From Candidatus Bathyarchaeota archaeon (GTDB taxonomy: Archaea; Thermoproteota; Bathyarchaeia; Bathyarchaeales; Bathyarchaeaceae), in the NCBI GenBank assembly GCA_004376295.1, contig SOJZ01000010.1, positions 1-64,000 of the forward strand: 64,000 nucleotides of DNA, read 5' to 3'. Below are positions 40,682 to 56,820 of this stretch, piece by piece. Positions within the stretch are counted from its first letter, which is position 1. Each line of letters starts with the position of its first letter. The position numbers and the translations under genes were made by a program. The notes beneath the pieces were generated by a model, which did not search any database, was not told the DNA's origin, and saw nothing but the letters and a program-made list of their open reading frames with translations.

Positions 40682-40730
40682 AGCTCCTCTGAAATTTCCT
40701 CTTCTTCTCTTTTACTCTTTTGATATTCCA

Positions 40731-40883
40731 TTAAGAGGAAGCAGAACCTATTCCGATCAAGATTGACACAAGTTTGACTTGATCGTAGTTTATTTGAGGA
40801 TGGCTAGCAGCTTCCGGCATCGCTGCTCCACCGAGACTAGTTATAAAAAGAAAGAATGACTCTAACGTTTCCTCAGGCTTCAT
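40731..40883 (-). CDS. Small protein upstream of the E1-domain-like gene, 50 aa
   Basis: ATG 40883 with GGAGTGA immediately upstream. The product (MKPEETLESFFLFITSLGGAAM... ending LIGIGSASS) has one hydrophobic stretch near the C-terminus and is followed, 49 bp on, by the 112-residue gene with its own GGAG sequence. Family unknown. Confidence 0.45.
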   Translation of the reverse strand: MKPEETLESFFLFITSLGGAAMPEAASHPQINYDQVKLVSILIGIGSASS

Positions 40884-40928
40884 TATTCACTCCTTCAAAC
40901 TCGTGTATCATAACACATTTCCTGTTCT

Positions 40929-41231
40929 TTAGTTTAGTGCCATACAGAAATGCTGCGCGCGGATGATTGGGAAGAGTGGGGTAGCCTGGTAGCCTACAGG
41001 CCTGTGGAGCTTGGCGCCCGGGTTCAAATCCCGGCCCCGGCCCTCAACTCGCGCTGGGCCGTTGAGGTCGGTTATTTGTTTCGGCTCCATTAGTAGTCTT
41101 ATCGCTTCAATCAAAGCGTTTTCTGAAATCCTTGACAGATTCAGACCCACTTTCCTTGCAGTCTGCACCACTTCCTTGCTAATATAAAGGCAAGTTGAAG
41201 CCTTGTCTCCCATCTTGCCACATGCTCCCAC
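40929..41231 (-). CDS. N-terminal fragment of an SSV/pNOB8-type integrase (IntN)
   Basis: Residues from the second methionine (MGDKASTCLYISKEVV, KVGLNLSRISENALIEAIRLL) match the N-terminal region of archaeal plasmid/virus integrases. The downstream stretch GRDLNPGAKLHRPVGYQATP is simply the antisense reading of the tRNA-His-like segment, as expected where the attachment site lies inside the integrase gene. The catalytic C-terminal part (R..HxxR..Y) is absent here. The start is GTG 41231 (or ATG 41213). It marks one end of an integrated element or a scar of one. Confidence 0.8.
   Translation of the reverse strand: MGACGKMGDKASTCLYISKEVVQTARKVGLNLSRISENALIEAIRLLMEPKQITDLNGPARVEGRGRDLNPGAKLHRPVGYQATPLFPIIRAQHFCMALN
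40977..41042 (+). tRNA. tRNA-His(GTG)-like sequence lacking its 5' acceptor strand
   Basis: From position 8 on, a tRNA-His folds: D stem GGGT/GCCT (40979-40982 with 40992-40995), anticodon stem CAGGC/GCTTG with anticodon GTG (41004-41006), T stem CCGGG/CCCGG with TTCAAAT loop (41023-41029), and 3' strand CCCCGGC plus C73 (41035-41042). The 5' strand should read GCCGGGG, but the upstream bases are GGAAGAG, so no acceptor stem forms, and the 3' end is CCT rather than CCA. It is best read as an attachment-site copy or disrupted tRNA, not a working tRNA. Confidence 0.75.
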
Positions 41232-41292
41232 ATGATTCCATGCGCGAACGGCTATTTATTGCCCCCTAAGGGAAAACCCGAGGTAGTTGCGT
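41209..41292 (-). repeat. Integrase upstream region, copy 1
   Basis: The 84 bases covering the integrase start codon and its upstream region are about 70% identical to 55931-56015. Both share CCCATCTTGCC, GTGGGAGCA (start codon) and GCGCGAAC. Confidence 0.7.
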
Positions 41293-41370
41293 TTGCGATA
41301 TGCTTGAGTACGCGGAAGCATACGCATAAGACTTAACAGCATATGAATCTAACTCTGTGGAGGTGTAAGC

Positions 41371-41778
41371 ATGAAGGGGAAAACTGGTAGAATAACTCGC
41401 CTTTGGCTAACCATGATCCGTGTTTCAGATATGGACAACGCCTTGCGTTTCTACAATGAAACTCTTGGCTTGCCCATAGCCCTTGACGCTAGAATGTTTA
41501 ACCATGCGGAAGTTGGTCCAGATGAGCCGTTGGCTAAGATCGGCTTGTATGCGACTGGTAAGAAATCTAGGAGGAAAAGGCGAACTGGGATAGTTTTCGA
41601 TACAGACGACATCTATGTACTCCATGAACGGCTCAAAAGGCAAGGGGTTAGATTCACTCTCAAGCCTACCAAGATGCCATGGGGTGGCATAGTTGCTGAC
41701 TTCTTGGACCCTGATAACAATGAACTTGAGGTCGTTCAAGACCCGGAACACTACAAAAGGACGCATGCACATCAATAA
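41371..41778 (+). CDS. VOC/glyoxalase-fold protein
   Basis: A 135-residue betaalpha-beta-beta-beta-fold protein with RLWLTMIRVSDMDNALRFYNETLGLP at the start and NNELEVVQDPE at the end, typical of vicinal oxygen chelate dioxygenases, glyoxalases and antibiotic-resistance proteins. A metal His-x-Glu arrangement is possible (FNHAEVG). ATG 41371 is preceded by GGAGGTG. It is the first gene after the integrase fragment. Confidence 0.85.
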   Translation: MKGKTGRITRLWLTMIRVSDMDNALRFYNETLGLPIALDARMFNHAEVGPDEPLAKIGLYATGKKSRRKRRTGIVFDTDDIYVLHERLKRQGVRFTLKPTKMPWGGIVADFLDPDNNELEVVQDPEHYKRTHAHQ

Positions 41779-42326
41779 TCATGCATACATGCGCCCTGCC
41801 CACAGCACATGCGCATGCATTCCAACTATTTTATAGAGGATTGTTTCACAAAGAACATAAGCGCGCGCATATGTTAAGTCCTATCTATTCTCTTGAATTA
41901 TTAGTGATTTAGTCTAGAGATTCGATTTTGTCTAAAAACCTTCACTCACTCGTTTGTCTCGATGTATGATGAACCTCTCTGACATTACTGAGTCATTGAC
42001 AAAGCAAGAACTTATTTGGGTCCTAATCTAAGGTAAAAACCTTTATTTGAGGTTCTACCACGGCTCTATTTGTTACAGTTCTTCTCAACCCTTTCAAAAA
42101 TCTTTGCTTATCATGCGCGCTAACCTTTTTTCGACAACATTAACTAATGGTCTTCTGTCGAAATCCCACACGCCATTTAAGGAAAATTCGCGTGTATTTG
42201 GGGTCCTTGAACCGATGATGCAGGGTAATCCCATGTTCTGCGGTTTGACCCTACACCTTGTCACCAGCGGATGAGCAATATACTAATAAGAACCCAGTTG
42301 GAAAGAGCCCAGTCTGGTTGATTGCT
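41779..42326. other. Intergenic region rich in alternating purine-pyrimidine tracts
   Basis: Between the VOC and M3 peptidase genes. It holds ATGCATACATGCGC after the stop codon, GCGCATGCAT (41811-41820) and GCGCGCGCATATG (41861-41873). I saw no gene in it apart from the ambiguous 5' extension of the peptidase. Confidence 0.5.
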
Positions 42327-44105
42327 ATGACTGAAGAGATGGTTTGGGATCTTTCGCAACTTGTTGAGAGCACTGATTCTGCTTGGATTCAAAAGCAATT
42401 GGAGTTGACGGTGGCTGAAGCCGAAAAATTTAGACATAAATATCGTGGCAAAATCGCTAGCCTTGAAGTGAAAAGCCTGGTTGAGATGTTGGAAGCGAAG
42501 GATGGTCATATCCTTAGATTTGAGGCGGCTGTGATGTATTGCCTCTTGATGTATTATGCCGATTCTACTGATGCGGTGGCTAAACAACTTAACGAAACTG
42601 CCCGTAAGACGATTACAAGGGTTAAGCAGGAGATGGCTTTTATAGATATTGAGTTAGGTAAACTGCTTTCCGAGAACCCGTCCTTGATCAATGAGCCGGC
42701 GTTGGCGGAGTACAAACACTATCTTGAGAGAATCTTGAGAAGGGTGCCTCACATGCTTTCTGAGATTGAGGAGCGTTTGATTATTCTCAAGGATAAGAAT
42801 GGTATTATGGCGTGGGCGATGTTCCAGAGCGATTGGCTTTCCACAAGGACTTTTGACATCGAAATTGAGGGGGAGATGAAGACTCTTCCTTATGGCAAGA
42901 TGGTGGGGTTGTATCAGAGTCCGGATCGAGATTTGCGAATGAGAGCCAATCAGACAGTTTATGAAAACTTGGGAAAGGATGAGATTGTATGGGCAAGTGC
43001 GGTTCGCTCGGTTTGCGAAGATCACATTCAAATGTGCAAGCTGCGCAAATATCCAGACCCTATGACTCAAAGCGTGATTGCCAATGATGTTGACAAGCAG
43101 GCTATTGAAAGCCTCATGAAGGTTATTGAGAAAAATGCGGGTTTGTATCAAAGGTATCTCAGGATAAAGGCCAAATTGATGGATCTGCCGAAGTTGGCAA
43201 ACTATGATTTGGCAGCTCCTCTGCCAAAGATGCCAGACAAAAAATACAGTTGGAGCGAAGCCCGAGAAGAAATAGTGGCGGCGTATAAGGGATTCGACGA
43301 GGAAATAGGAGGATGGATTGATGAGATGTTCGCTCGGCGTCATATTGACGGTGAGATTAGAAAGGGCAAAACTGCAGGAGCTTTTTGTGCATCATGGATT
43401 GCAGGAAAGAGCGCTTACGTTCTGCAGAGCTTCAACAATAGAATGGGAGACCTCTTCACCCAAGCCCACGAACTGGGACACGCCATCCATGCCTATCTTT
43501 ACTCGAGGGCACAGAAGCCTAGCAACTGTGAAATAGGGAGCTGTATCGCTGAGACTGGAAGCATCTTCGGTGAACTTCTCTTAGCTGAACACTTGCTTTC
43601 TAAGACTAAGACAAAGGAGGAAAGACAGGCAATTCTTGCGTATATATGGGACAGGTTTGGCGGAGTAGTGTTCCAGGTGTCTGCACGGTTCTTCCTCGAA
43701 AAAGAATTATACTCTTTCATTAAACAAGGCAAATTCCTGGACGGCGAAACTATCGCCAAGATGTGGGTGGAAGCAAGGGACAAAATCTGCGGTGACGCCA
43801 TTGATTGGTTGGACGTTATGAAGTGGCAATGGACAAAGCTCTCCCACTACTATATGGCTAACTATCGCTTTTACAACTATCCTTACGTTTTTGCCCAGCT
43901 TTACGTGTATGCTCTGTACAGGCTCTACAAGGAGCAGGGCAAAGACTTTGTGCCAAAGCTCAAGAGAATTTTGGCTGCAGGATCCAGCAAGTCACCAACG
44001 GAACTGAGCGCTGAATTGGGCTTTGACATCACTGCCGAAGCATTTTGGCAGAAGGGCATGAAGCAAGCAGGCCAATTCATTGACATGCTGGAAGAAACCG
44101 TTTAA
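42327..44105 (+). CDS. M3-family oligopeptidase (PepF-like)
   Basis: A zinc metallopeptidase that breaks down oligopeptides in the cytoplasm. The HELGHAIHAYL motif (HExxH) and a downstream glutamate in EIGSCIAETGSIFGE provide the zinc site. The C-terminal YRFYNYPYVFAQLYVYALY helix is typical of the family. The family N-terminus WDLSQLVES begins just after ATG 42327, so that start is preferred over TTG 42258. The length is about 592 residues. No operon partner. Confidence 0.93.
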   Translation: MTEEMVWDLSQLVESTDSAWIQKQLELTVAEAEKFRHKYRGKIASLEVKSLVEMLEAKDGHILRFEAAVMYCLLMYYADSTDAVAKQLNETARKTITRVKQEMAFIDIELGKLLSENPSLINEPALAEYKHYLERILRRVPHMLSEIEERLIILKDKNGIMAWAMFQSDWLSTRTFDIEIEGEMKTLPYGKMVGLYQSPDRDLRMRANQTVYENLGKDEIVWASAVRSVCEDHIQMCKLRKYPDPMTQSVIANDVDKQAIESLMKVIEKNAGLYQRYLRIKAKLMDLPKLANYDLAAPLPKMPDKKYSWSEAREEIVAAYKGFDEEIGGWIDEMFARRHIDGEIRKGKTAGAFCASWIAGKSAYVLQSFNNRMGDLFTQAHELGHAIHAYLYSRAQKPSNCEIGSCIAETGSIFGELLLAEHLLSKTKTKEERQAILAYIWDRFGGVVFQVSARFFLEKELYSFIKQGKFLDGETIAKMWVEARDKICGDAIDWLDVMKWQWTKLSHYYMANYRFYNYPYVFAQLYVYALYRLYKEQGKDFVPKLKRILAAGSSKSPTELSAELGFDITAEAFWQKGMKQAGQFIDMLEETV

Positions 44106-44174
44106 GAATGGTCCAAGACTTTAGGAATGTAATAGAAAAAGGGTAATTTAGTCACCAGATTTTTATCTATTTGT

Positions 44175-44190
44175 TATGCGCGCGCACATA
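44175..44190. other. 16-bp alternating purine-pyrimidine tract
   Basis: TATGCGCGCGCACATA alternates strictly; such tracts favour Z-DNA. It lies between the M3 peptidase and the AOR gene, in the convergent gap. Confidence 0.5.
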
Positions 44191-44284
44191 GAAAAGAATG
44201 TTTTGGAAAGCTCATGCTCTGTGCATGTAAACCCCGAATAACAAAAGACTGGGATTCTTTTATATTTTATAATATTAGGCTGAG

Positions 44285-46159
44285 CTACTTTATCAGACTT
44301 ACCTCCTTAAGCTTCGCTTCTACGTCTTCTAGGCCGAGTCTCCTTAGCGTTTCTGGTTTTGGCACTCCGTTCTCGTTCCAGCCAGCAGCCCTAAAGTATT
44401 CAAGCCTTGACTCCTCAAACATTTTTCTATCCAATGTTTTTCCTTTGTAGGGTCCTGAGGGCAGTGGCTCCCAGAACCTCGGTGGATTATCATCATCCGC
44501 TTTAGGTTTCCACTTAACGTCCGGACCGCCTAAAAGAAGCATGGCTCTTTGCAGGTGCAGTATTCTTAGGGCCTTTTCATTATACCATTCCTTTTTTGTT
44601 AGTTTCCATCCTGTTACTGCCTCGTAAAAGTTGAACATTTTTATGTCTTCAATTCCGAATGCGGCGAAGACGCAGAAGACAGCTGAGTCAGCCATTATTG
44701 TGGATAGTTCGCCACTTCCTTGGTCAAGCGGGAGAGAAGCCGTCGATGTGTGGTCTCCGCCTTGGACTGAGCACGCGTAGGCAATGTTTTTTGCAATGAA
44801 GTCTTTTCCGCTTCTAACCCCATGTGCTCCTATGGCTACGCCCTTCTCGTGAACAGCATACTTAAGCAGATCGACACCTTTCATTTCTCCAAGCTTTAAG
44901 GCGGCCCGATATACTCCCTCGGCTAGAATATCCCCGATTCCCTGCCTAAAGGCTACTTTCTCAGCTAGGGTTGTGAAGGCTTCGACATTCGCCCATTCAG
45001 GTTCTATTCCATCTAGATCTTCTTTTGTTAGTATTTCCTTCTCGTAGAGTTCTGCTGCGAGTCCTAGGACTGCTCCACCTTGAATTCCACATAAGCCAAG
45101 CTCGTTACTAACATAAGATAGGTAGATGTTCTCTTCAGGGGTGAATATTCCGAGGTTTGTTCCCAAATAGGCTTCAAGTTCGTAGTCTGGATTGTCGCAT
45201 ATTGCTCCCTTAAACCTTCCAGTTTTCAGCACTGCAAGCTTTAGGCACGTTGTTGGACAGCCAAAGTCTCCCCAGTTTTTCTTAACCCAGTATTTGTCAA
45301 ATTCTTCTCCCTTGTAACTTTCCTTGTTATGCCATTCATTCTGCCAGTTTCTGATAGGTTCAGAACTTGTTTCGGCTCCAAAGAAGTAGCCGCCTCCTCC
45401 AGTTCCCCAGCGTCTAAACCTTTCCATTTCAAAATTCAATTCAGAAAATCCTTTGGCTAAACTCAGCGTTTTTTCCTTATCATATACGTCTGGTACTGGG
45501 CCAAATCCCTTTGCGACTATTGCTTTCAGGTTTTTAGCTCCCATTACTCCACCGTATCCGCCGTAACCCGCTCCGTGTGCATACTTGGCGACGACAGCTG
45601 CAACCCTAGTTTTATTTTCTCCGGCTGGCCCAATATAGAGAATTGAGGGTTCCTTTACTTCTCCATAGTTTGGCCGAGCATCTTTAATTTCCTCGATTGA
45701 TTTTCTGACTAGAAAACGTAGGGTTTCCCTTGCTTTTTTGCCCCAGATAGGTGAGGCGTCTTTAATTTCGACTTGGTTGTCGCATATGAATACGTAGCAT
45801 GGCTTTTCTGCTTTTCCAGTTATTATTAAACCGTCATAACCTGCGCATTTCAAGTCTATTCCAAACTCGCCTGCAACTGTTGAGCCTATTACACCATTGC
45901 TTTGAGGCGACTTTCCAGAAACACAAACCTTTGTTCCTGGGAAATATCCCGTGAACGGGCCTGTAAGTACGAGTAGAATGTTTTCTGGGCCGAGTGGATC
46001 TACTGTTTCCCATTCTCTGCCAAGTCTATCCCATAGTACCTTTGTGGCTAAGCCTCTTCCGCCGATATAATCTCTTAGAACTTCGTCTGGAAACTTCGTT
46101 TCTTTGATGTTTCTGTTGGAAAGGTCTATTTCCAAGAATTTTCCGGCGTAGCCTCTCAT
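44285..46159 (-). CDS. Tungsten-type aldehyde:ferredoxin oxidoreductase (AOR family)
   Basis: At 624 residues it matches the AOR family, which oxidises aldehydes to acids with a bis-pterin tungsten cofactor and one 4Fe-4S cluster. It starts MRGYAGKFLEIDLSN and has YIGGRGLATKVLWDRLG and pterin-binding AHGAGYGGYGGVMGAKNLKAIV. The cluster motif reads WGDFGCPTTCLKLAV, where the first Cys of a CxxCxxxC appears to be Asp. The partner Fe-S protein overlaps its start by 1 bp upstream. FdhD at 38757 could supply cofactor sulfur. Confidence 0.93.
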   Translation of the reverse strand: MRGYAGKFLEIDLSNRNIKETKFPDEVLRDYIGGRGLATKVLWDRLGREWETVDPLGPENILLVLTGPFTGYFPGTKVCVSGKSPQSNGVIGSTVAGEFGIDLKCAGYDGLIITGKAEKPCYVFICDNQVEIKDASPIWGKKARETLRFLVRKSIEEIKDARPNYGEVKEPSILYIGPAGENKTRVAAVVAKYAHGAGYGGYGGVMGAKNLKAIVAKGFGPVPDVYDKEKTLSLAKGFSELNFEMERFRRWGTGGGGYFFGAETSSEPIRNWQNEWHNKESYKGEEFDKYWVKKNWGDFGCPTTCLKLAVLKTGRFKGAICDNPDYELEAYLGTNLGIFTPEENIYLSYVSNELGLCGIQGGAVLGLAAELYEKEILTKEDLDGIEPEWANVEAFTTLAEKVAFRQGIGDILAEGVYRAALKLGEMKGVDLLKYAVHEKGVAIGAHGVRSGKDFIAKNIAYACSVQGGDHTSTASLPLDQGSGELSTIMADSAVFCVFAAFGIEDIKMFNFYEAVTGWKLTKKEWYNEKALRILHLQRAMLLLGGPDVKWKPKADDDNPPRFWEPLPSGPYKGKTLDRKMFEESRLEYFRAAGWNENGVPKPETLRRLGLEDVEAKLKEVSLIK

Positions 46160-46692
46160 CAGTCTATAACCTCTTTTGCGGTTTCTTCTCCAAGAATTTG
46201 CTTGGCAACTTCATGTGTGAGTTCTTTGGGTGTTTTGGCTAAGGTCTTATAGGAGACTTCTTTTTCTCTTGGAACGGGCATTAAAGTGTTCCATCGGCCT
46301 TCTTGGCATGCTTTGACGCATTTTGGCTTTCCATCACATAAGTCGCAGATAACAATGTAGTTTCCTTCTGGATGGAGGTGTGGAACATTTCCCGGGCAAG
46401 CCTTTATGCATAGACCGCATGCAGTACACTTTGAAGCGTCTACGTTTACGGCCCTAGTTTGACTGTTTACGGATAGGGCCTCTGTTGGGCATGCTTCAAC
46501 ACATGGGTAATCATCGCATTGAAAGCATAAATGTGGAATCTCAACTCCTGGAACAAGCATGAAGACCCTTATTCTTGAAGCTTCAGGCCAAATTTTCCCT
46601 TCATGATAGAGCGCACAGGCAATTTCGCATCTTCTACATCCGCTACAATTCTCATAGTTTCGCTTAATCCAAACTTGGTCGTTTCGGCTCAT
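46159..46692 (-). CDS. Four-cluster ferredoxin-type electron-transfer protein
   Basis: Of 177 residues, four groups of cysteines are visible: CSGCRRCEIACALYH, CFQCDDYPCVEACP, CTACGLCIKACPGN and CDLCDGKPKCVKACQ. This is the HycB/DmsB-type arrangement for four 4Fe-4S clusters. Overlap with the AOR gene by one base indicates it carries electrons to or from that enzyme. The pair may form a larger AOR complex. Confidence 0.92.
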   Translation of the reverse strand: MSRNDQVWIKRNYENCSGCRRCEIACALYHEGKIWPEASRIRVFMLVPGVEIPHLCFQCDDYPCVEACPTEALSVNSQTRAVNVDASKCTACGLCIKACPGNVPHLHPEGNYIVICDLCDGKPKCVKACQEGRWNTLMPVPREKEVSYKTLAKTPKELTHEVAKQILGEETAKEVID

Positions 46693-46732
46693 ACTGCATC
46701 ACTTACTACATAACAAAAAAGTTTGGCCAGGT

Positions 46733-46834
46733 TTAACTGGTCTCCTTCAATTTCGAAATAGCTTCCTCAGCGCATTTGCTTTCGTTGTCTGACCATTCCT
46801 TGTATGCCTTAAGTTTTTCGATTTTTCCTCTGGC
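46733..46834 (-). pseudogene. C-terminal remnant of a small protein (33 codons)
   Basis: In the 480-bp gap upstream of the AOR operon the minus strand reads ARGKIEKLKAYKEWSD... ending LKETS and a TAA. It is a plausible protein fragment with a TAA just upstream and no start codon. A CATGCAT cluster follows at 46893-46900. No family assigned. Confidence 0.35.
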
Positions 46835-46888
46835 TTAAGAAACCTTTTTTCACGATATTTGCTGCACATAGTTTTTCATCTCCAAGAT

Positions 46889-47023
46889 GCACGCATGCAT
46901 GACTTTTTAATCAAGTCAAGATAATATAACCTTCTGAACAGTCTCGCGAGGAAGTTTGATATGGAGTAGAAGCTCCTACGTGTGCGCTTTGGTTTTCTGG
47001 CAAATTAACATTGCATGCATGCA
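46889..47023. repeat. Pair of (GCAT)n motifs upstream of the AOR operon
   Basis: GCATGCAT (46893-46900) and TGCATGCATGCA (47012-47023) flank otherwise featureless sequence between the AOR operon and arsR. Confidence 0.6.
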
Positions 47024-47174
47024 AAACGCAGAGGCTGGTTTCGCCCTGTCTATAGAATTTTGCTAGGTCCTCATGGCTATACTTTCTGCACTTGCAATCA
47101 AATATCTGGGTACTCCTGTACCTACGGGATACTAGAAATCTGGTTTTGGATAAGTTTCAAAATTGTTAACCGCT

Positions 47175-47570
47175 CTATTTTTCCATGAACACTCTCATGA
47201 GATTCGTAAAACGCTTGTCTCCTAAGCTATAAAAGACCCATTTCCCTTCATGCTTGTCCTCTACCAGATCCACTGCTTCTAGTATCCCTAAATGGTGTGA
47301 GGCTGTAGGCTGAGTCAAATCTAATGCAACCATAATCTCGCATACGCACATTTCGCGGATGCCTAGAAGCATCATAATTTTAAGTCTTGTTGTGTCAGCC
47401 AGTGCTTTGAACAATCGACTTTGCGTTTTCACCGTATTCTCATCTGTTATTTCATGAACGAGTTGTCTAAGCTCTGAAGCGTATTTTGAGACATCTTCAG
47501 CAGGACAGATTCCAGACCTTACCAAACGCTCAAGTCTTTTGCTTATCTTTGGTTTTTGTTCGAGAACCAT
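47175..47570 (-). CDS. arsR: ArsR/SmtB-family metalloregulator
   Basis: The 131-residue winged-helix repressor has the motif FKALADTTRLKIMMLL, the metal-sensing MCVCEIMVALDLTQPTASHHL helix (CxC at the DNA-recognition helix, as in As(III)/Sb(III) sensors) and YSLGDKRF in the wing. It is divergent from the acr3 gene, whose promoter it likely controls through the ATATTTAAATAT palindrome at 47602-47613. Confidence 0.92.
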   Translation of the reverse strand: MVLEQKPKISKRLERLVRSGICPAEDVSKYASELRQLVHEITDENTVKTQSRLFKALADTTRLKIMMLLGIREMCVCEIMVALDLTQPTASHHLGILEAVDLVEDKHEGKWVFYSLGDKRFTNLMRVFMEK

Positions 47571-47601
47571 AGCATCATCCTCATTTAAACTCTATACCAA
47601 A

Positions 47602-47613
47602 ATATTTAAATAT
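47602..47613. promoter_or_regulatory. Candidate ArsR operator / divergent promoter
   Basis: ATATTTAAATAT is a perfect 12-bp palindrome lying 32 bp before the arsR start and about 75 bp before acr3. A related ACTTAAATATGT half lies at 47641. The AT-rich steps could also be TATA boxes, so this may combine promoter and operator. Confidence 0.45.
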
Positions 47614-47688
47614 GTTTTGAGTGTTTTCTCAGATTAACGAACTTAAATATGTGACTCCACTCGCTTGAACTGATGGAGGGACCTAGGC

Positions 47689-48708
47689 TTGGTTGAAGAT
47701 AGCCGTAAGCTTGGTATCTTTGAAAAGTATCTAGCAGCATGGGTTGTTCTATGCATACTGTTGGGACTATTTCTAGCACAATATTTCCCAGTTCTCAGCA
47801 TCACGATCAACAACATGCAGATCGCAGGAATATCAATCCCTATCGGTATATGCCTGTTCTTAATGATGTATCCAGCTCTTCTAAATGTGCAGTTGGACGA
47901 ATTGAAGAAACTATTCCACAATCCTAAGCCAATTATCCTTACACTTGTTTCGAATTGGGTTTTGGCTCCATTGGTAACTGCATTTCTGGCCTATTATTTC
48001 TTGGCTGGACAGAATCAACTAATTGTATCCCTAATACTATTGGGCTCAAGTCCGTGTACAGCCATGGTTTTGGTGTGGGGAGTTCTCGCAGAGGGAAACC
48101 AAGAACAGAACATCATCAATACCAGCCTGAACACGATCACAATCTTGTTCCTGTATGCCCCAGTGGTCTCTCTATTGACTGGTATCCAGAATATTCCGAT
48201 TGACAGGATAGCCCTTGTCATAACCGTGTTTGTTTTTATCGGGATTCCATTGGTTTTAGGTTATTTCTCAAAGAAGTACATCACTGGTAGAAAGGGGGAG
48301 GATTGGTTCCGTAACATCTATAGACCAGCAGTGGGGAAAATAGCGATACTTGCTCTCTTGACCACACTAGTTGTATTATTTTCGTTGAATGGAAATGTGC
48401 TAATACAACATCCCGAGGAAATGATACTCGTTTCTATCCCGTTATTGTTAGGTTTCATCATAGTTGTCGGATTCAACCTATTCGTCACTAAATTTGCGGG
48501 TCTCAGATACGAAGAAGCAATAATATCCGTGATAATAGGTTCTTCCAGCCACTTTGAAATCGCAATTGCGACCGCTATCAGCCTTTATGGATTAGGCTCA
48601 CAAGCTGCACTAGGAACAACAATGGGCTTGTTCTGGGAGGTACCAATCATGCTTAGCCTAGTATATCTAGGCAAAACACTGAACCATAAAGGATTTTGGA
48701 AAAAATGA
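47689..48708 (+). CDS. acr3: Arsenite efflux permease Acr3
   Basis: The 339-residue membrane protein has about 10 helices and the family motifs PIGICLFLMMYPALLNVQLDEL, SNWVLAPLVTAFLAYYF, LLGSSPCTAMVLVWGVLAEGN (with the conserved Cys of Acr3) and GSSSHFEIAIATAISLYG. It extrudes arsenite (and possibly antimonite). TTG 47689 is preceded by GGAGGG. It is divergent from arsR. Together they form a minimal arsenic resistance locus. Confidence 0.93.
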   Translation: MVEDSRKLGIFEKYLAAWVVLCILLGLFLAQYFPVLSITINNMQIAGISIPIGICLFLMMYPALLNVQLDELKKLFHNPKPIILTLVSNWVLAPLVTAFLAYYFLAGQNQLIVSLILLGSSPCTAMVLVWGVLAEGNQEQNIINTSLNTITILFLYAPVVSLLTGIQNIPIDRIALVITVFVFIGIPLVLGYFSKKYITGRKGEDWFRNIYRPAVGKIAILALLTTLVVLFSLNGNVLIQHPEEMILVSIPLLLGFIIVVGFNLFVTKFAGLRYEEAIISVIIGSSSHFEIAIATAISLYGLGSQAALGTTMGLFWEVPIMLSLVYLGKTLNHKGFWKK

Positions 48709-49042
48709 ATGACAGAAGCCTACCTTTAAGAATTGGAGTCAGGAAAATACGCTGCTTTCTTGGTGATCTCAAGTGAGCAAGTTCCAGTTTTCTTACACCA
48801 ATCCTCTCACTTTTGAGCAGTTTCTCTACATGCGTAGCCGAAGCCGCATTCATGCATGCATGTTTTGTCATTACCCTGGAAGGGTATGTGTGGCCCCTCT
48901 CTTGAAGAAGGGAAGCACACATTTCGCGACATGCGCTTGTGTCTGACTGCTGGTCAAAAACTTATTAAAGTTATGAAGCCCGAATCGGTATTCAACATCA
49001 ATCTGTGCATGCATGCGCACGTCACGTATATATGAATGAAGC
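48709..49042. other. Intergenic region with two (GCAT)n motifs
   Basis: CATGCATGCATG at 48851-48862 and an 18-bp alternating tract GTGCATGCATGCGCACGT at 49005-49022, just upstream of the QueG-like reading frame. Otherwise no gene was seen. Confidence 0.5.
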
Positions 49043-49815
49043 TTGGTGTCTGAATGGTGGATAAATCCCGATGGGGGAAGTGTTGAGTTGTCTCACGGAA
49101 ATAGTTCAGTTAGGATGCTAGATCAACTCAAGCGCCTCATTGAAGAAAAATCCATCAAGTGGGGTGCTGACCTCGTCGGGTTTGCGAACTTTGAAAGATT
49201 CAATCGATACCCAGAGGAAAACCGTCCTCCAGAAGGAACTAGACGATCATTGTTTTAGCGATATGGATGGAAGATCCCATTTTGGATCTGTGGCTTCACA
49301 CCCCTTCTTGGAAGAATCAAGGTAAACCAGATCGTGCATTCGAAGATGAAATTCTGCGTGGTGTATCACTACGTCTTTCACTCTTGCTTGAACGAAAAGG
49401 GTATTGGGCCGAACCGGCACCTTATGAACCTGGGCTCTATCTAAAAGAGGCAGGGGCTCTCGCAGGTTTAGGCGTTATTGGCAGAAACAATCTCCTTATT
49501 ACAAAGGAATACGGTCCGCGAATACGCCTACGCGCCATTAATACCAGTGCATCACTGAAACCTGACCCGATTATTGAAAGCCATAGCTACTGCGGCGAAT
49601 GCAACGCATGTGTTGACGCTTGTCCCGCACACGCATTTGACACTGGGAAATATGATAAAGAGGCTTGCCTTAGCTATTGCGAAAACAACCTAATGGAGGT
49701 TTCAAAATACTCTGCGTTATGGTGCATGGAGTGTTCAGACGTCTGTCTCATTGGTGGAAGTAGAGCGCGTTTAAGCAATCCATCAAAGGATGGAGTTGGT
49801 CGAAGCCGGATATGA
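49043..49815 (+). pseudogene. QueG-like Fe-S epoxyqueuosine reductase-type gene, frameshifted
   Basis: The first part (49043-49258) encodes KWGADLVGFANFERFN..RPPEG. The next part continues in another frame: IIVLAIWMEDPILDLW, then LERKGYWAEPAPYEPGLYL and AGLGVIGRNNLLITKEYGPRIRL, and the ferredoxin-type CGECNACVDACPAHAF. The switch occurs close to 49243, where one or two bases seem lost or gained. The family reduces epoxyqueuosine or related substrates with B12 and Fe-S clusters. The sequence might be a true pseudogene, an assembly indel, or programmed frameshifting. It starts near ATG 49121 or TTG 49043. Confidence 0.7.
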
Positions 49816-49820
49816 ATATG

Positions 49821-49836
49821 AATGCATGCATGCATT
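49821..49836. repeat. 16-bp (GCAT)n perfect palindrome
   Basis: AATGCATGCATGCATT is a perfect palindrome starting 5 bp after the stop of the QueG-like gene. It is the longest uninterrupted member of the family. A second copy, TGCATGCATGCA, follows at 49910-49921. Confidence 0.8.
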
Positions 49837-50001
49837 ACAAACAATGTTGTTTTTAGTGGTTCAAAGTTTTAAGACTATGTTGTATGAATGTAGCAACCAC
49901 TAAAATCAATGCATGCATGCAAGTTTTCGACTCACAAGTGCGCTGCTAACTTAACGTTTATATCTGTAAAAGTGAATGGTCGGGCATAGGCAGAGAAGCA
50001 A

Positions 50002-50112
50002 ATGGATAACAAAAAACGCGTAGAAAAGGCCATTCAAAAAAGAGTCAAAACCAGACGATACACAGGCAAATATAAAGGAAGAGGAAAACACAAGCCAAAA
50101 GACCCAGCATAG
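50002..50112 (+). CDS. Small basic protein, 36 aa
   Basis: ATG 50002 reads MDNKKRVEKAIQKRVKTR then RYTGKYKGRGKHKPKDPA. The strongly basic, Gly/Lys/Arg-rich composition is like small nucleic-acid-binding or ribosome-associated peptides. A (GCAT)n motif (GCGCATGCAT, 50118-50127) follows the stop by 5 bp and two others lie within 60 bp. Confidence 0.45.
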   Translation: MDNKKRVEKAIQKRVKTRRYTGKYKGRGKHKPKDPA

Positions 50113-50199
50113 TAAAGCGCATGCATTGCTCTCCAATACAGCATTATACATGACCTTTATGCACATGCATGCTAATTATGAAACTCTATTCAAACTCAA

Positions 50200-50232
50200 T
50201 GTGGCGACATCCCCCACAAACCCCCCTTATTT
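50200..50232 (+). repeat. Hairpin/CCCCC element, copy A
   Basis: TGTGG-CGACATCC-(C)CCACA hairpin followed by AACCCCCC and TTATTTG. It aligns with the copy at 51045. A GCATGCAT motif follows at 50238-50245. Confidence 0.6.
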
Positions 50233-50281
50233 GTGTCGCATGCATCAAGCAACATGAAGCAAAGCTAAGAAATGCTGGTTC

Positions 50282-50392
50282 TTACCAGGTTTGTTTTTTC
50301 CAAACGTTGTATGGACATTGACGCCAACAGTAAGTGGAACCTTTGAAGCTACAACCTTTACATTGCACAGTAGAGAACATGCGAGATTTCAA
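50282..50392 (-). CDS. Mini zinc-finger protein, 36 aa
   Basis: The frame runs from TTG 50392 (or ATG 50380) through VQCKGCSFKGSTYCWRQCPYN to a stop at 50282. CxxC plus two further cysteines make a four-cysteine zinc site. AGGAG lies upstream of the TTG. A very small but protein-like frame in accessory DNA. Confidence 0.5.
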   Translation of the reverse strand: MKSRMFSTVQCKGCSFKGSTYCWRQCPYNVWKKQTW

Positions 50393-50470
50393 AAATCGTT
50401 GCTTCTCCTATGGAGTTCTAAGGTTAGCGGGCTATAAGAATCTTTCAATTTTCCTGTGAGCAATAGTAGA

Positions 50471-50482
50471 TGCATGCATGCA
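50471..50482. repeat. TGCATGCATGCA abutting a stop codon
   Basis: This palindrome ends directly at base 50483, the last base of the minus-strand zinc-ribbon gene's stop codon. Another copy (ATGCATGCATGC, 50781-50792) lies about 50 bp upstream of the same gene's start, so the gene is bracketed. Confidence 0.75.
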
Positions 50483-50728
50483 CTAACTCGATTTCTTCTT
50501 TCTTTTTGCTTTCTTAGTTGTGGTTTTCCCTTTCTCAGTCTTCTTCTGAGTTGTTTTCTTGGATTCTGCAGTTTTCTTTTTTATCGTTGTATCCATGCTT
50601 CTCTCTAGGCTTGCTATTTTGTAGCTATCCGCTGGAGTTCTATCCTTTGGACACATAGTTTTTCGAAGTCCTCTATCCCATACGATTTCTGTTCCACCGC
50701 AATCTGGGCATTGATATGTTTTCCCCAT
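50483..50728 (-). CDS. Zinc-ribbon protein with Lys-rich tail, 81 aa
   Basis: YQCPDCGGTEIVWDRGLRKTMCPKD is a zinc ribbon (three visible cysteines CxxC...C plus possibly a histidine elsewhere). A long basic Thr/Lys-rich tail follows (KKTAESKKTTQKK...KRKKKSS), typical of nucleic-acid-binding tails. Start ATG 50728. It is bracketed by (GCAT)n motifs. Confidence 0.65.
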   Translation of the reverse strand: MGKTYQCPDCGGTEIVWDRGLRKTMCPKDRTPADSYKIASLERSMDTTIKKKTAESKKTTQKKTEKGKTTTKKAKRKKKSS

Positions 50729-51172
50729 TTTCCATCACCTAGTTGATAGTATCGAGTTGTACTAAAGATTTAGGTCCCAAATGCATGCATGCTTTTCATT
50801 CCGAACCTGTTTATAAGTAGCTTGGGAATGGATTCTCAAAGGCTTCGTTCTAAGTTTCTCTAGCTCTTATGGTTAGCACACAATCCAGAGACTTTCGTAG
50901 CAATCCACATGATAGTAATGGATCCGTTTTGTCTGTATGCATGCTTCGATGAAATCAACGGTGTCCACCTGTATCGAAGACGGCGATAACCGCAAAAGTA
51001 CTAGGTTACATTAAAAAAACCAAGGCTTTATAAATAAGCTGTTAAGCGTGGTGACATCTCCACGCTCCCCGCAAAACCCCCTTTTTTCTACTAATGCATG
51101 CATTGAGCGCTGATCAGAGAGTAAAAGCGAAGAATTTATTTGACTGGCATGAGGCATGCATGCTGTTACGCA
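50729..51172. other. Intergenic region with three (GCAT)n motifs and element B
   Basis: Motifs at 50781-50792, 50935-50944 and 51093-51104. TTTATAAGTA near 50808 and TTTATAAATAA at 51027-51037 look like archaeal TATA boxes. The second lies just before the hairpin element at 51045. A small transcribed RNA starting around 51057 is possible. GCATGCATGC also lies 9 bp before the MFS gene start. Confidence 0.5.
51045..51087 (+). repeat. Hairpin/CCCCC-TTTTTT element, copy B
   Basis: Perfect 7-bp stem AGCGTGG/CCACGCT around TGACATCT (51045-51066), then CCCC, GCAAAA, CCCCC and TTTTTT. It is the best-preserved copy of the family and is followed by AATGCATGCATT at 51093-51104. Preceded by a strong TATA-like box at 51027. 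Confidence 0.7.
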
Positions 51173-52246
51173 ATGAAACCAAATTTAATTAGATTTCTCA
51201 CTTTTGCCGCGATCATGTCTTCTTGGATATACATGTCTATTTTTGCTAAGGGCTTGGGAATATCAGATCCGGAGATCGGTTTCATTGTAGCTGCTTATTC
51301 TTTGGCTTTATTCTTGTCCTCTTTTATTTTTGGTCGCGCGTCAGACAGGTATGGTAGGAAACTCTTTTTGGTAGTTGGCTTAGTGTTATCCAGTTTCACA
51401 TTCTTCTTGCAGATATTCGCTCACAATTTCTTAGGTATATTGCTGACTCGCGTTTTAGCCGGTTTTTGTGTAGGCATATTCCCCGCTTCGTTGATTGCAC
51501 ACGTTCAAGAGAACAAAAAGGACCTGTCTAAGTTTTCATCTTTCGGGTCGATGGGTTGGACTTTTGGATTGTTGATTGCAGGTTTGATAGCTTTCTATTT
51601 ATCCATTGAAGGCGTTTTCGTTTTCAGTTCCTTGCTATTCATCCCTGCATTTCTTGTAGCTTCTAAAATGAGGTTTGGTGAACACCATTCCGTAAATGTA
51701 CCTGTCTTGCCTATCAAGATCATAAAGAAGAATCTTCCCCTCTATCTATCTGTTCTTATTCGTCACAGTGGAGCGCATATGATATGGACTTTCTGGCCTC
51801 TTTTTCTGCAAACACTCGGTGCTGACCTGTTCTGGGTTGCTGTCATTCAAGCTATTAACGGTGCAACACAGTTTGTCTTTATGTATACGGTGAGCCAAAA
51901 AATTGGATATGTCTCTTCGATTGCTGGAGGTCTTATACTAGCAAGTGTCACTTTCTTTTCTTTTACTCTAGTAGCGAATTTCTGGCAAATAATGCCAGCA
52001 CAGGTTCTTCTGGGGGTTTCCTGGTCGCTCCTGTATGTAGGTGGATTAAGGTATCTAATGGACAGAAATGTTGAAAAAGCAACAGTCAGCGGTTTGTTCG
52101 ATTCTGCTTTAAGCCTGTCATCTATAATAGGGCCTCTCATTGGAGCTCTTGTAATATCATTCGGTAGCTACAGCACAACAATGTATCTTGCTTCAATACT
52201 AGCCTTCACGGGCTTTCTTTCGTTCAAATTCTCAAAACGAGAATAA
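51173..52246 (+). CDS. Major facilitator superfamily transporter
   Basis: The 357-residue protein has about 12 helices and the MFS motif A (GRASDRYGRKLFLVVGL) after helix 2, with a second symmetrical half. It exports or imports a small solute; substrate unknown. The start ATG 51173 (MKPNLIRFLTF) is preferred over TTG 51140, because it begins right at helix 1 and follows the (GCAT)n motif at 51154-51163. TGCATGCATGCA also follows the stop codon by 5 bp (52252-52263). Confidence 0.88.
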   Translation: MKPNLIRFLTFAAIMSSWIYMSIFAKGLGISDPEIGFIVAAYSLALFLSSFIFGRASDRYGRKLFLVVGLVLSSFTFFLQIFAHNFLGILLTRVLAGFCVGIFPASLIAHVQENKKDLSKFSSFGSMGWTFGLLIAGLIAFYLSIEGVFVFSSLLFIPAFLVASKMRFGEHHSVNVPVLPIKIIKKNLPLYLSVLIRHSGAHMIWTFWPLFLQTLGADLFWVAVIQAINGATQFVFMYTVSQKIGYVSSIAGGLILASVTFFSFTLVANFWQIMPAQVLLGVSWSLLYVGGLRYLMDRNVEKATVSGLFDSALSLSSIIGPLIGALVISFGSYSTTMYLASILAFTGFLSFKFSKRE

Positions 52247-52251
52247 CCACT

Positions 52252-52263
52252 TGCATGCATGCA
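52252..52263. repeat. TGCATGCATGCA motif after MFS stop
   Basis: Starts 5 bp after the stop codon and abuts the hairpin element copy C at 52262. It is a (GCAT)n copy at a gene end. Confidence 0.7.
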
Positions 52264-52300
52264 AAAAGTGGGATTTGCGGGAGTTATCACCAGCACTAAG
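52262..52300 (-). repeat. Hairpin/CCCCC element, copy C
   Basis: GCAAAAAGTGGGATTTGCGGG followed by AGTTATCACCAGCAC. On the minus strand it reads TGCTGG-TGATAACT-CCCGCA then AAATCCCAC, so TGC/GCA and GG/CC pair around a small loop as in copies B and E. Confidence 0.55.
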
Positions 52301-52362
52301 TGGGTTCGAATACTCCTAACAGATAACATTTAAGCGATAGTTTGGGTTAAGAATGCACCTTC

Positions 52363-53451
52363 TTGGAAGGAATCGATTTGACTTCAAAGGTAGCCATTGT
52401 CAAGTTTGATGAAAATGCAGAAGCGAGATCATTGAAGGAAGCTCTGCGTCTAATTGGTGGAATAGACGATTTGAACACTTCTAAGAGAACAATAGTTGTG
52501 AAAGTTGGAGTTTTTAGTCATAAAGCGGAAAACCATACATCGGTTAATGTGGTTGACGCTATTGTTAATAGCTTTGATAAAGCGCCAGAGATTTTTCTGG
52601 TCGAATCAGATAATTACCAAGGTAGGGGTTTGGAGAGACTTCAAGTTTGGAAGCAACTTTTCACTAATAGAGTGATGCCATTTAGCCTTTCAGACGACGC
52701 GAATGTTATGGACGTAAGGCTTGCTGGCCAAGAAATGAAGTTGTCACATATACTCTTCAAGCCCAACATCTTCCTTGACACGCACATTCTACGTTCTTTC
52801 GAGAGAGGAAGTATTCTGAAAAACCTTTTCGGATGTATTCCAACATCAAAGAAAGTTAAGTTTCATAAGATGGAGATCTTTTGCCCACTTCTCGCTGACA
52901 TTTTTGAGACAATAGGCGGAATAGATCTTGCAGTGACGGATGGCACTTACTTTTGGAGTGGAGCAGGCAACTTGCCCGTGCACATGAATACTCTCATAGT
53001 GGGTAGAGATGCCGTTGCTGTAGAGACGGTTGGAGCTGTACTTGCTGGATTAGAGCCTAAGAAGATGCCTGTTATACAAGAGTTCGTGAAAAGAGGTCTC
53101 GGAGAAGGTAATATAGAAAATATCCAGATCTTGGGGGCTTCTCTTGAAAGTCTCAAAGAGGAAATCATAACCGCTAAAAAGACTCAAAAGATGCGCACCC
53201 AAGCCCGTGCATTAGGACCTCAAACGTGGGGAGGAAAATCTTATCACGCACTTGAAAGCTTAATCCAAGACGGATTCTTCAAACTGCCTAACAAGAGAAC
53301 AAGAAAAGACGTATCTAAGGCATTAGAAGCTAGAGGTTTATCGACTGAAGGCAAGGAACAAAAAATTGCGAATTCTCTTTCTCGAAGAGTAAAGAAGGGA
53401 GTCTTGAAATCAGCCAAGGGTCCAGATGGATGGGTTTACTGGACAGAATAG
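52363..53451 (+). CDS. DUF362 domain protein, 362 aa
   Basis: The DUF362 core (about 10-240) has IVVKVGVFSHKAENHTSVNVVDA, EIFLVESDNYQGRG, LLADIFETIGGIDLAVTDGT and AVAVETVGAVLAGLEPKKMP. Family members are poorly characterised and often associated with Fe-S proteins or sulfur/carbon metabolism; no cysteine cluster is present here. The C-terminal ~90 residues look like a winged-helix (TRKDVSKALEARGLSTEG, GVLKSAKGPDGWVYW). Start TTG 52363. Function unknown. Confidence 0.8.
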   Translation: MEGIDLTSKVAIVKFDENAEARSLKEALRLIGGIDDLNTSKRTIVVKVGVFSHKAENHTSVNVVDAIVNSFDKAPEIFLVESDNYQGRGLERLQVWKQLFTNRVMPFSLSDDANVMDVRLAGQEMKLSHILFKPNIFLDTHILRSFERGSILKNLFGCIPTSKKVKFHKMEIFCPLLADIFETIGGIDLAVTDGTYFWSGAGNLPVHMNTLIVGRDAVAVETVGAVLAGLEPKKMPVIQEFVKRGLGEGNIENIQILGASLESLKEEIITAKKTQKMRTQARALGPQTWGGKSYHALESLIQDGFFKLPNKRTRKDVSKALEARGLSTEGKEQKIANSLSRRVKKGVLKSAKGPDGWVYWTE

Positions 53452-53466
53452 CAGCGTTAGCTTAAC

Positions 53467-53492
53467 GAAAAAAAGGGGGTTTGTCGGTGCTT
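53467..53492 (-). repeat. Hairpin/CCCCC-TTTTTT element, copy D (partial)
   Basis: GAAAAAAAGGGGGTTTGTCGGTGC lies between the stop of the DUF362 gene and the stop of the RAM-domain gene. It keeps the T run and CCCCC/GACAAAC part but not a full stem, so it is the weakest copy. Confidence 0.45.
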
Positions 53493-53503
53493 GTTGGAAA
53501 TGG

Positions 53504-53779
53504 CTATTTCCAGTTGATGTATTCTTTTATTGGGGTTGTTGGCACCGTATGTGCTTCGAGAACGCCTGGGATTGGGCGTATTTTGTCATTTACGAAATCG
53601 TGGGCGTAGTCTTGGTTTTCAGCTTCAAACCATATTGCTAGGTCCCAGTTTCCGAAACAGTTCATGGTGTAGTACAGCCTGACTCCATGGTAGGGTTGCT
53701 CTGGAAGTTTTCTCAGCTTCTGTGTGATGTCTTTGGTTCTCGTTGGATTCGTTTTCAGCAAAACGAAATATTTGTTCAT
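53504..53779 (-). CDS. Stand-alone Lrp/AsnC RAM-domain protein
   Basis: The 91-residue protein (MNKYFVLLKTNPTRTKDITQ, NWDLAIWFEAENQDYAHDFV) matches the ligand-binding RAM domain of Lrp regulators without the DNA-binding HTH. Such proteins bind amino acids and can modulate Lrp partners. Convergent with the DUF362 gene. No binding partner is obvious nearby. Confidence 0.7.
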   Translation of the reverse strand: MNKYFVLLKTNPTRTKDITQKLRKLPEQPYHGVRLYYTMNCFGNWDLAIWFEAENQDYAHDFVNDKIRPIPGVLEAHTVPTTPIKEYINWK

Positions 53780-54135
53780 GCTTTTTTTCTTCCTTTTACT
53801 GATGCAAACGGATAGGAGATTTAGCGTTCTTATCTCTTATGAAGTCTGAGTAACTATTCTGAATCATTTTGTAAGGCATGGATGCATGCATGAAAATGGT
53901 TAAGGAATATCTATGGAAGATGAAGGGATGAGGGCGTATACATGGTATGGGTTCTCATGGAAAATGGTGAACCATGCATGCGCATAGCTCTCTCCTCGCT
54001 CCCTCAGACATTTAATGATGAATGTTGATAGCTAAGAGTCTTGTGAATGATTCTTCTGGAGGATTCTTCTGGAAGATTTAACATGCATGCAGCATTCGCA
54101 AGGATAATTAAGGATTAGATACTTTTGAAGGTTAT
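53780..54135. other. Intergenic region with (GCAT)n motifs and tandem 12-mer
   Basis: ATGCATGCAT at 53882-53891, CATGCATGCGCAT at 53973-53985 and CATGCATGCA at 54083-54092. GATTCTTCTGGA occurs twice in tandem (54049-54060, 54062-54073). No gene supported. Confidence 0.5.
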
Positions 54136-54528
54136 GTGAAAACTGATATGATCTTTTCTATCAGTGAAGAGTTGCTCAAGGCGATTTTTGAAGGCGCAAG
54201 AAGGCTTTATCCAAGGGAAACAATTTTGCTTCTTCGAGGCGAAAAGAAGAAGAATTTGATTATGGTTTCCGAGCTTGTTGTTCCTCCACTCGCAACCTAT
54301 GGGCGAAGTTTCGCCAACATTCCTCTTCACATGTTACCCATGGATTTCTCCATCGTTGGAACTGTACATTCCCATCCATCTGGAAATCTAACACCTTCCA
54401 CAGCAGACCTCAACCATTTCTTTGGAAGTGCACTCATGATCGTAGGTTTTCCCTTTGCAGAAAAAAGAAACACTGCAGTATACAACCGGAATGGAGAGAA
54501 GTTAACATTACAAATAACGAAAGCGTAG
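54136..54528 (+). CDS. JAMM/MPN metalloprotease domain protein
   Basis: The zinc motif HSHPSGNLTPSTAD (HxHP-x7-D) at about residue 75-90 identifies a JAMM isopeptidase-type domain of about 130 residues, with an acidic residue earlier in RGEKKKNL. Such enzymes cleave ubiquitin-like modifiers from targets (as SAMP desampylases in haloarchaea). An E1-like enzyme is also in this window at 37544, so a small ubiquitin-like system may exist; the modifier itself was not seen. Start GTG 54136 or ATG 54148. Its end is antisense to a Cys-rich frame. Confidence 0.85.
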   Translation: MKTDMIFSISEELLKAIFEGARRLYPRETILLLRGEKKKNLIMVSELVVPPLATYGRSFANIPLHMLPMDFSIVGTVHSHPSGNLTPSTADLNHFFGSALMIVGFPFAEKRNTAVYNRNGEKLTLQITKA

Positions 54529-54638
54529 AGAAGATATCTTAGGTAGAAATGCGTGCATGTGGAACATAGTCCGGTGGTTCCGCATTCTTCGCAGAGTGAT
54601 GCTCTACAACACATGCAGATTCGGAATGTGTATTTCAT
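54526..54638 (-). CDS. Possible Cys-rich mini-protein antisense to the JAMM gene end
   Basis: MKYTFRICMCCRASLCEECG and then LCSTCTHFYLR contain seven cysteines in about 30 residues, spaced as in zinc fingers. The frame has no early stop and continues antisense across the end of the JAMM gene, which makes a true gene uncertain; only the first part is proposed. A TGCATGCATGCA motif overlaps the most upstream possible ATG (54651-54662). Confidence 0.35.
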
Positions 54639-54723
54639 ATAAATTGACAATGCATGCATGCAGAGAAAATTAATATCCCTTTTTGTTGTATTTTATGTTC
54701 CGATGCAGAGGAGTGAGTAAGAG

Positions 54724-55260
54724 GTGCCAAAGAAAGATAGTGACGTGCAAAAGGATGAACGTTCGAGAAAGAAAGCAGAGGAAGCGCTTGACGAAAAGAC
54801 TATGAAAAAATTGGGGAAATTGAGCCAAAAAACCATGAAAAAACTGGCAAAATTGGGTGAGCTTCCTCTTTTGTACGAAGACTATGTCAATATAGCTGTA
54901 CCACAATCACTCGCTAAGAAATCTGCGAAACATGAGAAAAGCAAAGGTGAAGATCTTCTGCGCAACTTTGAAGAGAACGTCTTTGATTGGGATGACGAAG
55001 CCACAAAGAAGCCAGCCTTTGACGCCTTCAAGAATGTATTTGAGGGTTTTGATAAGCTGCGGAGAACGTTCGACGCTAAGCAAAAAGAAATCGTTGGTGA
55101 AACTGACTTTGGGAGGAACATGGCAACGATGGTTGCATTGATGCGACAGCAGATTGAAGCTTCGGAGCGAGCAGCAAGGTCACAGAGTAAACGGTTCTAT
55201 ATTTCCCTGACGGTAGCTGCCATATCAGTGATAGCTGCGGTCATTAAGATCCTGCTCTGA
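54724..55260 (+). CDS. Charged coiled-coil protein with C-terminal membrane anchor, 178 aa
   Basis: N-terminal helices are charged (SDVQKDERSRKKAEEALDEK, KTMKKLGKLSQKTMKK). The middle is acidic (EENVFDWDDEATKKP) and the C-terminus has one transmembrane helix (FYISLTVAAISVIAAVIKILL). It likely sits on the membrane with its coiled coil in the cytoplasm. Start GTG 54724. No family recognised. Confidence 0.6.
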   Translation: MPKKDSDVQKDERSRKKAEEALDEKTMKKLGKLSQKTMKKLAKLGELPLLYEDYVNIAVPQSLAKKSAKHEKSKGEDLLRNFEENVFDWDDEATKKPAFDAFKNVFEGFDKLRRTFDAKQKEIVGETDFGRNMATMVALMRQQIEASERAARSQSKRFYISLTVAAISVIAAVIKILL

Positions 55261-55422
55261 TGTTTGCTGTTAGGAACATAGCTCATGCACACGCTCTTGT
55301 CTTCTATTATCTCTAAGATTTTTGGCGCGTGCGCAAAACTGCAGGCTCTTCTTTCCAAACCATGCTGTCATTACCGAAAATATATTAACTAAATGTTTGA
55401 ATAGCGACTCTAAGTGTTAGAA

Positions 55423-55614
55423 ATGAAATGCATGTTTAATCCAGGGATAGAGTGCACTGTTTACGGTGTCCTGAAAGAAGTAGTAGAGCGTCCTGATCCA
55501 TACCAGATTCTCCAGCATGCGTGTCCCCTGTGTCCAGATCGACCCTTTCCAGAAAGGCCCTTTCCAGATCGGCCTCTTCCGGAACGTCCAAGAAGACGCC
55601 TGCGGAAAAAATAG
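55423..55614 (+). CDS. Small protein with CxxC and Pro-Arg-rich tail, 63 aa
   Basis: ATG 55423 (MKCMFNPGIECTVYGVLKE) is preferred over an upstream TTG. ACPLCPDRP is followed by the imperfect repeats ERPFPDRPLPERP, an unusual [DE]RPxP repeat ending in a basic RRRLRKK. Four cysteines suggest zinc binding. Family unknown; the codon usage looks coding. Confidence 0.6.
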   Translation: MKCMFNPGIECTVYGVLKEVVERPDPYQILQHACPLCPDRPFPERPFPDRPLPERPRRRLRKK

Positions 55615-55652
55615 ATTCTTTTTTTTCGTGCGCGCATAAGTGAGCGTGAAAA

Positions 55653-55814: not shown

Positions 55815-55930
55815 CAGAAGTTTACTCCTTCCCGCACGAGGATATCTTAAAAAAGAAGATGTAAAAACTTTGTTGCACAAAATGAAGTCGGAAATTCGAT
55901 TCTAGCGCACGCAGGTCGATTTCTTGTTTT

Positions 55931-56015
55931 CCCATCTTGCCGCGTGCTCCCACATGAATTCACGCGCGAACCGTGTGTTTAATGGTCTCTAGGGAAAAAG
56001 TCGAGGCGGCTACGT
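55931..56015 (-). pseudogene. Second, truncated copy of the integrase start region
   Basis: About 85 bp match 41209-41292, including the start codon context GTGGGAGCACGCGGCAAG. After the first ~7 codons the reading frame diverges (GKQEIDLRALESNF) so nothing else of the integrase remains. It marks a second relic of an integrated element in the same orientation 14.7 kb from the first. Confidence 0.65.
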
Positions 56016-56040
56016 GAGCACTAAGTTCTTGTTATGGTCT

Positions 56041-56667: not shown

Positions 56668-56820
56668 TTCTTCGTAAGATACATGTTTGGATATTTAACC
56701 TGATATGGCTACTTTTCACATTGATATCCCAACTTTTACTTGTGTTTTCTGAACACTGGGCACATTCTATGGTGGTGAAGTATTCAAAGCCGGCTTCTGT
56801 GAGTTCGCAAGCTTTTTCAA

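Follow-up and report, generated by a model that had tools for sequence, protein, structure and literature searches.

A partial tRNA-His copy joined to the N-terminal fragment of an SSV-type integrase gene: a probable attL away from the working tRNA gene in a Bathyarchaeota genome

In this study we describe a partial tRNA-His sequence that is joined to the antisense N-terminal fragment of an integrase gene (IntN) in a Bathyarchaeota MAG of an uncultured sediment archaeon (genome G000; 1.89 Mb, 44 contigs); this observation is confirmed. The analysed stretch of DNA (64,000 nucleotides, hereafter the window) lies within contig C10 (88,507 bases). The locus is probably the attL of an extinct element with an SSV-type integrase, which integrated at a partial tRNA-His away from the working gene (Table 1). 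The integrase gene would have contained a core with the same sequence as the 3' two-thirds of tRNA-His, and the target would have been a partial copy elsewhere in the chromosome, devoid of the 5' acceptor strand, instead of the working gene. Recombination at the core would have split the integrase gene, leaving IntN, with its ribbon-helix-helix (RHH) domain, downstream of the target tRNA and in antisense orientation to it. The partial tRNA may have been used as an attachment site at least twice, with different IntNs being exchanged at the core, and the C-terminal part of the gene (IntC) and the right junction were presumably deleted later, so that only attL is left in the window.

Table 1. Features of the partial tRNA-His locus and its surroundings (window coordinates)
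Feature	Position	Strand	Remarks
Left flank of the partial tRNA	40739..40975		Common to allelic contig SOJY01000129.1 (G026:C2), 90.5% identity
Partial tRNA-His(GTG), positions ~7/8 to 73, without 5' acceptor strand	40976..41042	+	
Attachment core, from anticodon stem 5' strand to tRNA 3' end	40999..41047		Delimited from core/IntC or isolated core copies in G026, G020 and G032
IntN, N-terminal fragment of SSV-type integrase	40929..41231	-	100 aa
IntN subpart: RHH domain	~41097-41204		
IntN subpart: tRNA-encoded peptide	~40979-41042		Followed by a short out-of-family tail up to the stop
Conserved upstream element of IntN with TATA-like box GGGGGCAATAAATAGCC	41239..41290	-	Sequence comparison; common to IntN copies
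Glyoxalase-family gene directly behind IntN	41371..41778	+	Within segment absent from G010:C105
615-aa ORF, putative peptidase	42258..44105	+	Within segment absent from G010:C105
Second trace of the integrase family: IntN upstream element and ~12 codons, then broken off	55930..56006	-	

The tRNA-like sequence, called by ARAGORN as tRNA-His(gtg) at 40975-41043, is 97% identical over 71 bases to the intact tRNA-His of the same genome, and its presence is therefore not due to chance. The window copy aligns only with positions 7-64 of the 71 positions of Rfam model RF00005 (31.6 bits), compared with positions 1-71 (56 bits) for the intact gene. The D, anticodon and T arms are kept, whereas the 5' strand of the acceptor stem (GGAAGAG) forms only three of seven pairs with the 3' strand (CCCCGGC), all seven being formed in the intact tRNA; the first-pass annotation of this DNA, which had noticed a tRNA-His(GTG)-like segment with an unpaired 5' acceptor strand, was thus correct on this point. 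The intact tRNA-His(GTG), which that annotation suggested looking for elsewhere in the assembly, was found on contig C23, where it adjoins tRNA-Ala, as in the sister genome G003, and has no integrase fragment beside it.

In the IntN reading frame, a match above cut-off to PF07362 (5.4e-6) marks a CcdA-type RHH domain; the tRNA-encoded peptide GRGRDLNPGAKLHRPVGYQAT comes after it, and the frame reads antisense through the 3' part of the tRNA. The identity of this ORF is revealed by an order-level relative (genome G050, locus L193), in which a 394-residue ORF (stop to stop) combines a CcdA-type RHH domain, the tRNA core and the recombinase domains PF00589 (Phage_integrase)/PF16795 (Phage_integr_3); the two RHH domains share 41% identity over 39 residues (BLASTP). 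This architecture shows that the window ORF is the N-terminus of an SSV-type integrase and not a free antitoxin, and bears out the earlier description of the tRNA segment as antisense to an integrase N-terminus. No toxin gene was recognised among the scanned neighbouring ORFs, namely the glyoxalase and one that matched no family. PF16795 is a domain of the suicidal integrases (PMC8371274). A tyrosine recombinase of this type, with the attP core inside its gene, is present in both L193 and G026:C2, its catalytic part being absent from the window contig; the catalytic parts of the RHH-bearing family weakly match the integrases of Sulfolobus spindle-shaped viruses. As in the split genes found at SSV-type attL sites, the N-terminal fragment in the window lies on the tRNA side, in antisense orientation, and runs into the 3' part of the tRNA. 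The conserved element upstream of IntN, recognised by sequence comparison, is a putative promoter of this gene. The dN/dS between IntN copies (0.15-0.35) is inseparable from selection acting inside active elements.

Integrases of the pNOB8 type (type II) stay intact and are not split on integration. The first-pass annotation had invoked SSV/pNOB8-type integration; its SSV part stands, while the pNOB8 part was rejected, since only IntN is present and the gene of this family contains the core. The window's own genome also carries an IntC of the same family (G000:C12:52070-52894, L191), with 48% identity to the G026 IntC and without a recognisable tRNA core in front of it. In other Bathyarchaeota, SSV-type IntC genes (L190, L192, L193, L194, L212, L213) are fused to the 3' parts of several different tRNAs, and the integrase family has therefore switched its targets repeatedly.

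The attP core of these integrases comprises ~45-48 bp, with the anticodon stem at one end and the tRNA 3' terminus at the other. The integrase of G026:C2, reading GRDLNLGARLHRP followed by GNCDNDRLLAGFYDF, continues across the core to give a complete IntC. In G026, G020 (where the core is joined to IntC) and G032, identity with the tRNA begins at one and the same anticodon-stem base (GGCCTGTGG), from which it follows that the D-arm of the window copy comes from the target and not from the element. At 15 other Bathyarchaeota loci the tRNA-His followed by the antisense IntN is intact, which is the arrangement to be expected of a normal attL and agrees with what the earlier annotation had stated for the IntN side of a normal integration; the window is without such an intact target. 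As a positive control, G020 keeps both ends of its element: at ~435 kb IntN adjoins an intact tRNA-His, and at ~504 kb an IntC-like sequence is fused to a 45-bp core. A second core joined to IntC is likewise present in the allelic contig G026:C2. The window's 88.5-kb contig contains no second core, and tblastn with the G026 IntC gave only matches with E > 1; the intC fragment and second repeat that were to be sought according to the first-pass annotation are both missing from it, and the rest of the element, including its other end, has therefore been lost. Among viral contigs, a search for intact elements gave one partial match and none with the window ORF.

IntN sequences joined to acceptor-less tRNA fragments were found at four loci (the window, G026:C2, G009 and G002), representing three separate sites. 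The window and G026:C2 share the same site (window 40713-41297 corresponds to C2 18255-17673, and window 44181-44267 to C2 88-3). The displaced copies G009:1462497 and G002:629250 have unrelated flanks, and each of these genomes also has an intact tRNA-His; no syntenic empty site was found for either copy from its flanks. In all four acceptor-less copies the tRNA is broken off near position 8-11. The proximity of three independent breaks hints at a common cause, although three cases prove nothing. A direct-repeat model, with GAGGTAG at both unit ends, was rejected, because the G002 copy is devoid of this motif. Of the three options put forward earlier to account for the disrupted tRNA end (a deletion, a second insertion or a misplaced copy), the last one fits best, because the intact tRNA-His of this genome is at another place and has no IntN, and the same acceptor-less fragment is found on the allelic contig.

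Comparison of the window with G026:C2 revealed a sharp change of identity at the core: 90.5% in the flank, 91% in the 5' part of the tRNA and 98% in the core, compared with 63% in the IntN coding sequence (flank versus IntN, p = 2e-11). The synonymous divergence of the two IntNs (~1.45) is far above that of the flank; fast protein evolution is thus no explanation, and this divergence cannot postdate the separation of the flanks. Judging by this comparison, the two IntNs have different histories and meet a common flank at the core. Approximately 14 kb from the first core, G026:C2 contains a second one, flanked by IntC at one end and by a different, decayed IntN at the opposite end, which would correspond to an element that entered a site consisting of the tRNA fragment and an older IntN, or to two tandem elements. 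The simplest reading is that elements used the displaced partial tRNA-His as an attachment site on more than one occasion. The switch of identity at the core could also have arisen without a second integration, if attL copies exchanged their IntN sequences by homologous recombination; the resolution of the IntN tree is poor. The contigs G026:C2 and G010:C105 are 83-97% and ~93% identical to the window, respectively, while other homologues in the same genomes show ~64% identity. Since their similarity to the window far exceeds that of the remainder of their genomes, these two contigs may come from close relatives of the window organism and have been mis-binned; even so they would still be valid alleles, with the host of G026:C2 being uncertain.

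The left flank of the partial tRNA is absent from the sister genome G003, which diverges from the window at position 40738, and among 162 genomes of the order it occurs in none besides the window genome and G026:C2. In the comparison with relatives lacking the insertion, which the first-pass annotation had proposed, both G003:C22 and G010:C105 are without the insert, but they have their own deletions at this locus, so that neither is ancestral, and no clean empty site was found.

Several other origins of the locus have to be weighed against integration at a partial tRNA copy. It is possible, if doubtful, that a second complete tRNA-His gene took up an ordinary integration and, freed from selection, subsequently lost its 5' acceptor strand through mutation or deletion. 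Second copies do exist, since one of the two intact tRNA-His genes of G139 has an IntN and the other has none, and the three of seven acceptor positions that still match in the window may do so by chance or by descent. However, the DNA upstream of the break in the window, G026, G009 and G002 is unrelated and contains no tRNA-His-like sequence; moreover, the break is nearly identical (position ~8-11) at three unrelated sites, with the remaining tRNA nearly intact.

A rather unlikely alternative is that an attL piece (tRNA ~8-73 and IntN) was moved here by rearrangement and that the allelic IntN was obtained by homologous exchange, no integration ever having occurred at this place. The region between 40.7 and 58 kb is heavily rearranged between relatives, the displaced IntN of G002 is 89% identical to the IntN at the intact tRNA-His of that genome, and homologous exchange of IntN/IntC between integrated elements has been described (PMC8371274). 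Against such a transfer, G026:C2 has IntC and a second core at the locus, at the distance of ~14 kb from the first, as predicted by integration.

Off-target integration is possible for SSV-type integrases (PMC8371274), and the attP of the element might itself have held a longer tRNA segment, including the D-arm, that was inserted at a non-tRNA site. The GAGCA found just before the break in both the G009 and G002 copies would be consistent with this origin, which we nevertheless regard as improbable: three core copies stop at the anticodon stem, and the reading frames beyond the break end after ~7-18 residues without IntC similarity. It is at least as doubtful, and in our opinion slightly more so, that acceptor-less tRNA-His fragments are standing decoy landing pads, which divert tRNA-His-specific elements away from the working gene and are reused by one element after another, and that the orphan RHH-containing IntN is under selection as a regulator or competitor of incoming integrases. 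Finally, although split and intron-containing tRNA genes are known from archaea (PMC3293823) and the D, anticodon and T arms are preserved, it is hardly credible that the tRNA-like piece belongs to a functional tRNA, which would need a complete acceptor stem or a spliceable 5' exon: the 5' exon GCCGGGG is absent from the + strand across the whole 64 kb, so that there is none to be joined through an intron, and the genome has an intact tRNA-His. Neither of the two results named beforehand as refuting a disrupted attachment site was obtained, i.e. no intron was found, and no ordinary tRNA gene is present at the locus in relatives.

SSV-type integrases are believed to endure because the tRNA genes that they use are conserved and stay undamaged. 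If the preferred reading, i.e. integration at a displaced partial tRNA-His, is true, a partial tRNA still taking up elements would mean that integration requires the core and the target-side arm alone and not a complete tRNA, and such a site would let elements accumulate without risk to the tRNA. To our knowledge, there are no cultured integrative-element models for Bathyarchaeota, and the present analysis documents a tRNA-His-specific family of SSV-type integrases with an RHH N-terminus across this group. The element is of a known kind at an unusual target; the new aspect, if it holds, is the repeated use of a partial tRNA gene as an attachment site.

The locus shares with the SSV-type (type I, "suicidal") integrases the core inside the integrase gene, antisense to the 3' part of the tRNA, and the splitting of the gene on integration, with IntN staying on the tRNA side (PMC8371274), and relatives of the window family carry PF16795. 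It differs from them in that the IntN side is without an intact tRNA, the target being an acceptor-less tRNA-His fragment away from the gene, and in that IntN has a CcdA-type RHH domain, a term absent from the review PMC8371274. In the model of chimeric suicidal integrases (pT26-2/TKV, PMC8371274), IntN and the other side also have differing histories and are joined at the att core; there the exchange takes place between elements at intact tRNA genes, whereas here it concerns one displaced fragment. Scattering of tRNA-Thr fragments by a mobile element in Caldiarchaeum (PMC3293823) is similar in that a tRNA fragment lies off its gene together with a recombinase element; that case involves a 5' fragment and intron gain, in contrast to the 3' fragment fused to IntN, without an intron, in the window.

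The genes behind IntN, including the glyoxalase gene and the 615-aa ORF (presumably an M3-like peptidase), may be left-over cargo of the element. A homologue of the latter (G013:C10:105901-107761, L099) is located ~24 bp behind the intact tRNA-His of G013, which suggests that this gene travels with tRNA-His-specific elements. The whole region 40738-58000 of the window is hypervariable, and G003, G010:C105 and G026:C2 differ in it by insertions, deletions and shuffled blocks; for example, the gene at G026:C2 2528-3106 recurs at differing places in G003 and G010. The second IntN trace in the window is broken off after GACCTGC, and similar broken IntN starts are present in G026:C2 (2379-2458, 11920-12001) and G009 (1116569-1116634), several of such starts running into alternating purine-pyrimidine sequence. 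Contig C10, mostly between window positions 46900 and 57800, contains 128 alternating purine-pyrimidine runs of at least 10 bases (e.g. ATGCATGCATGC, TGCGCGCGCA), compared with ~40 expected, at densities of 4.2 per kb in intergenic and 0.74 per kb in coding DNA. Some of the synteny breaks coincide with runs of this kind (44175-44190, 54650-54662).
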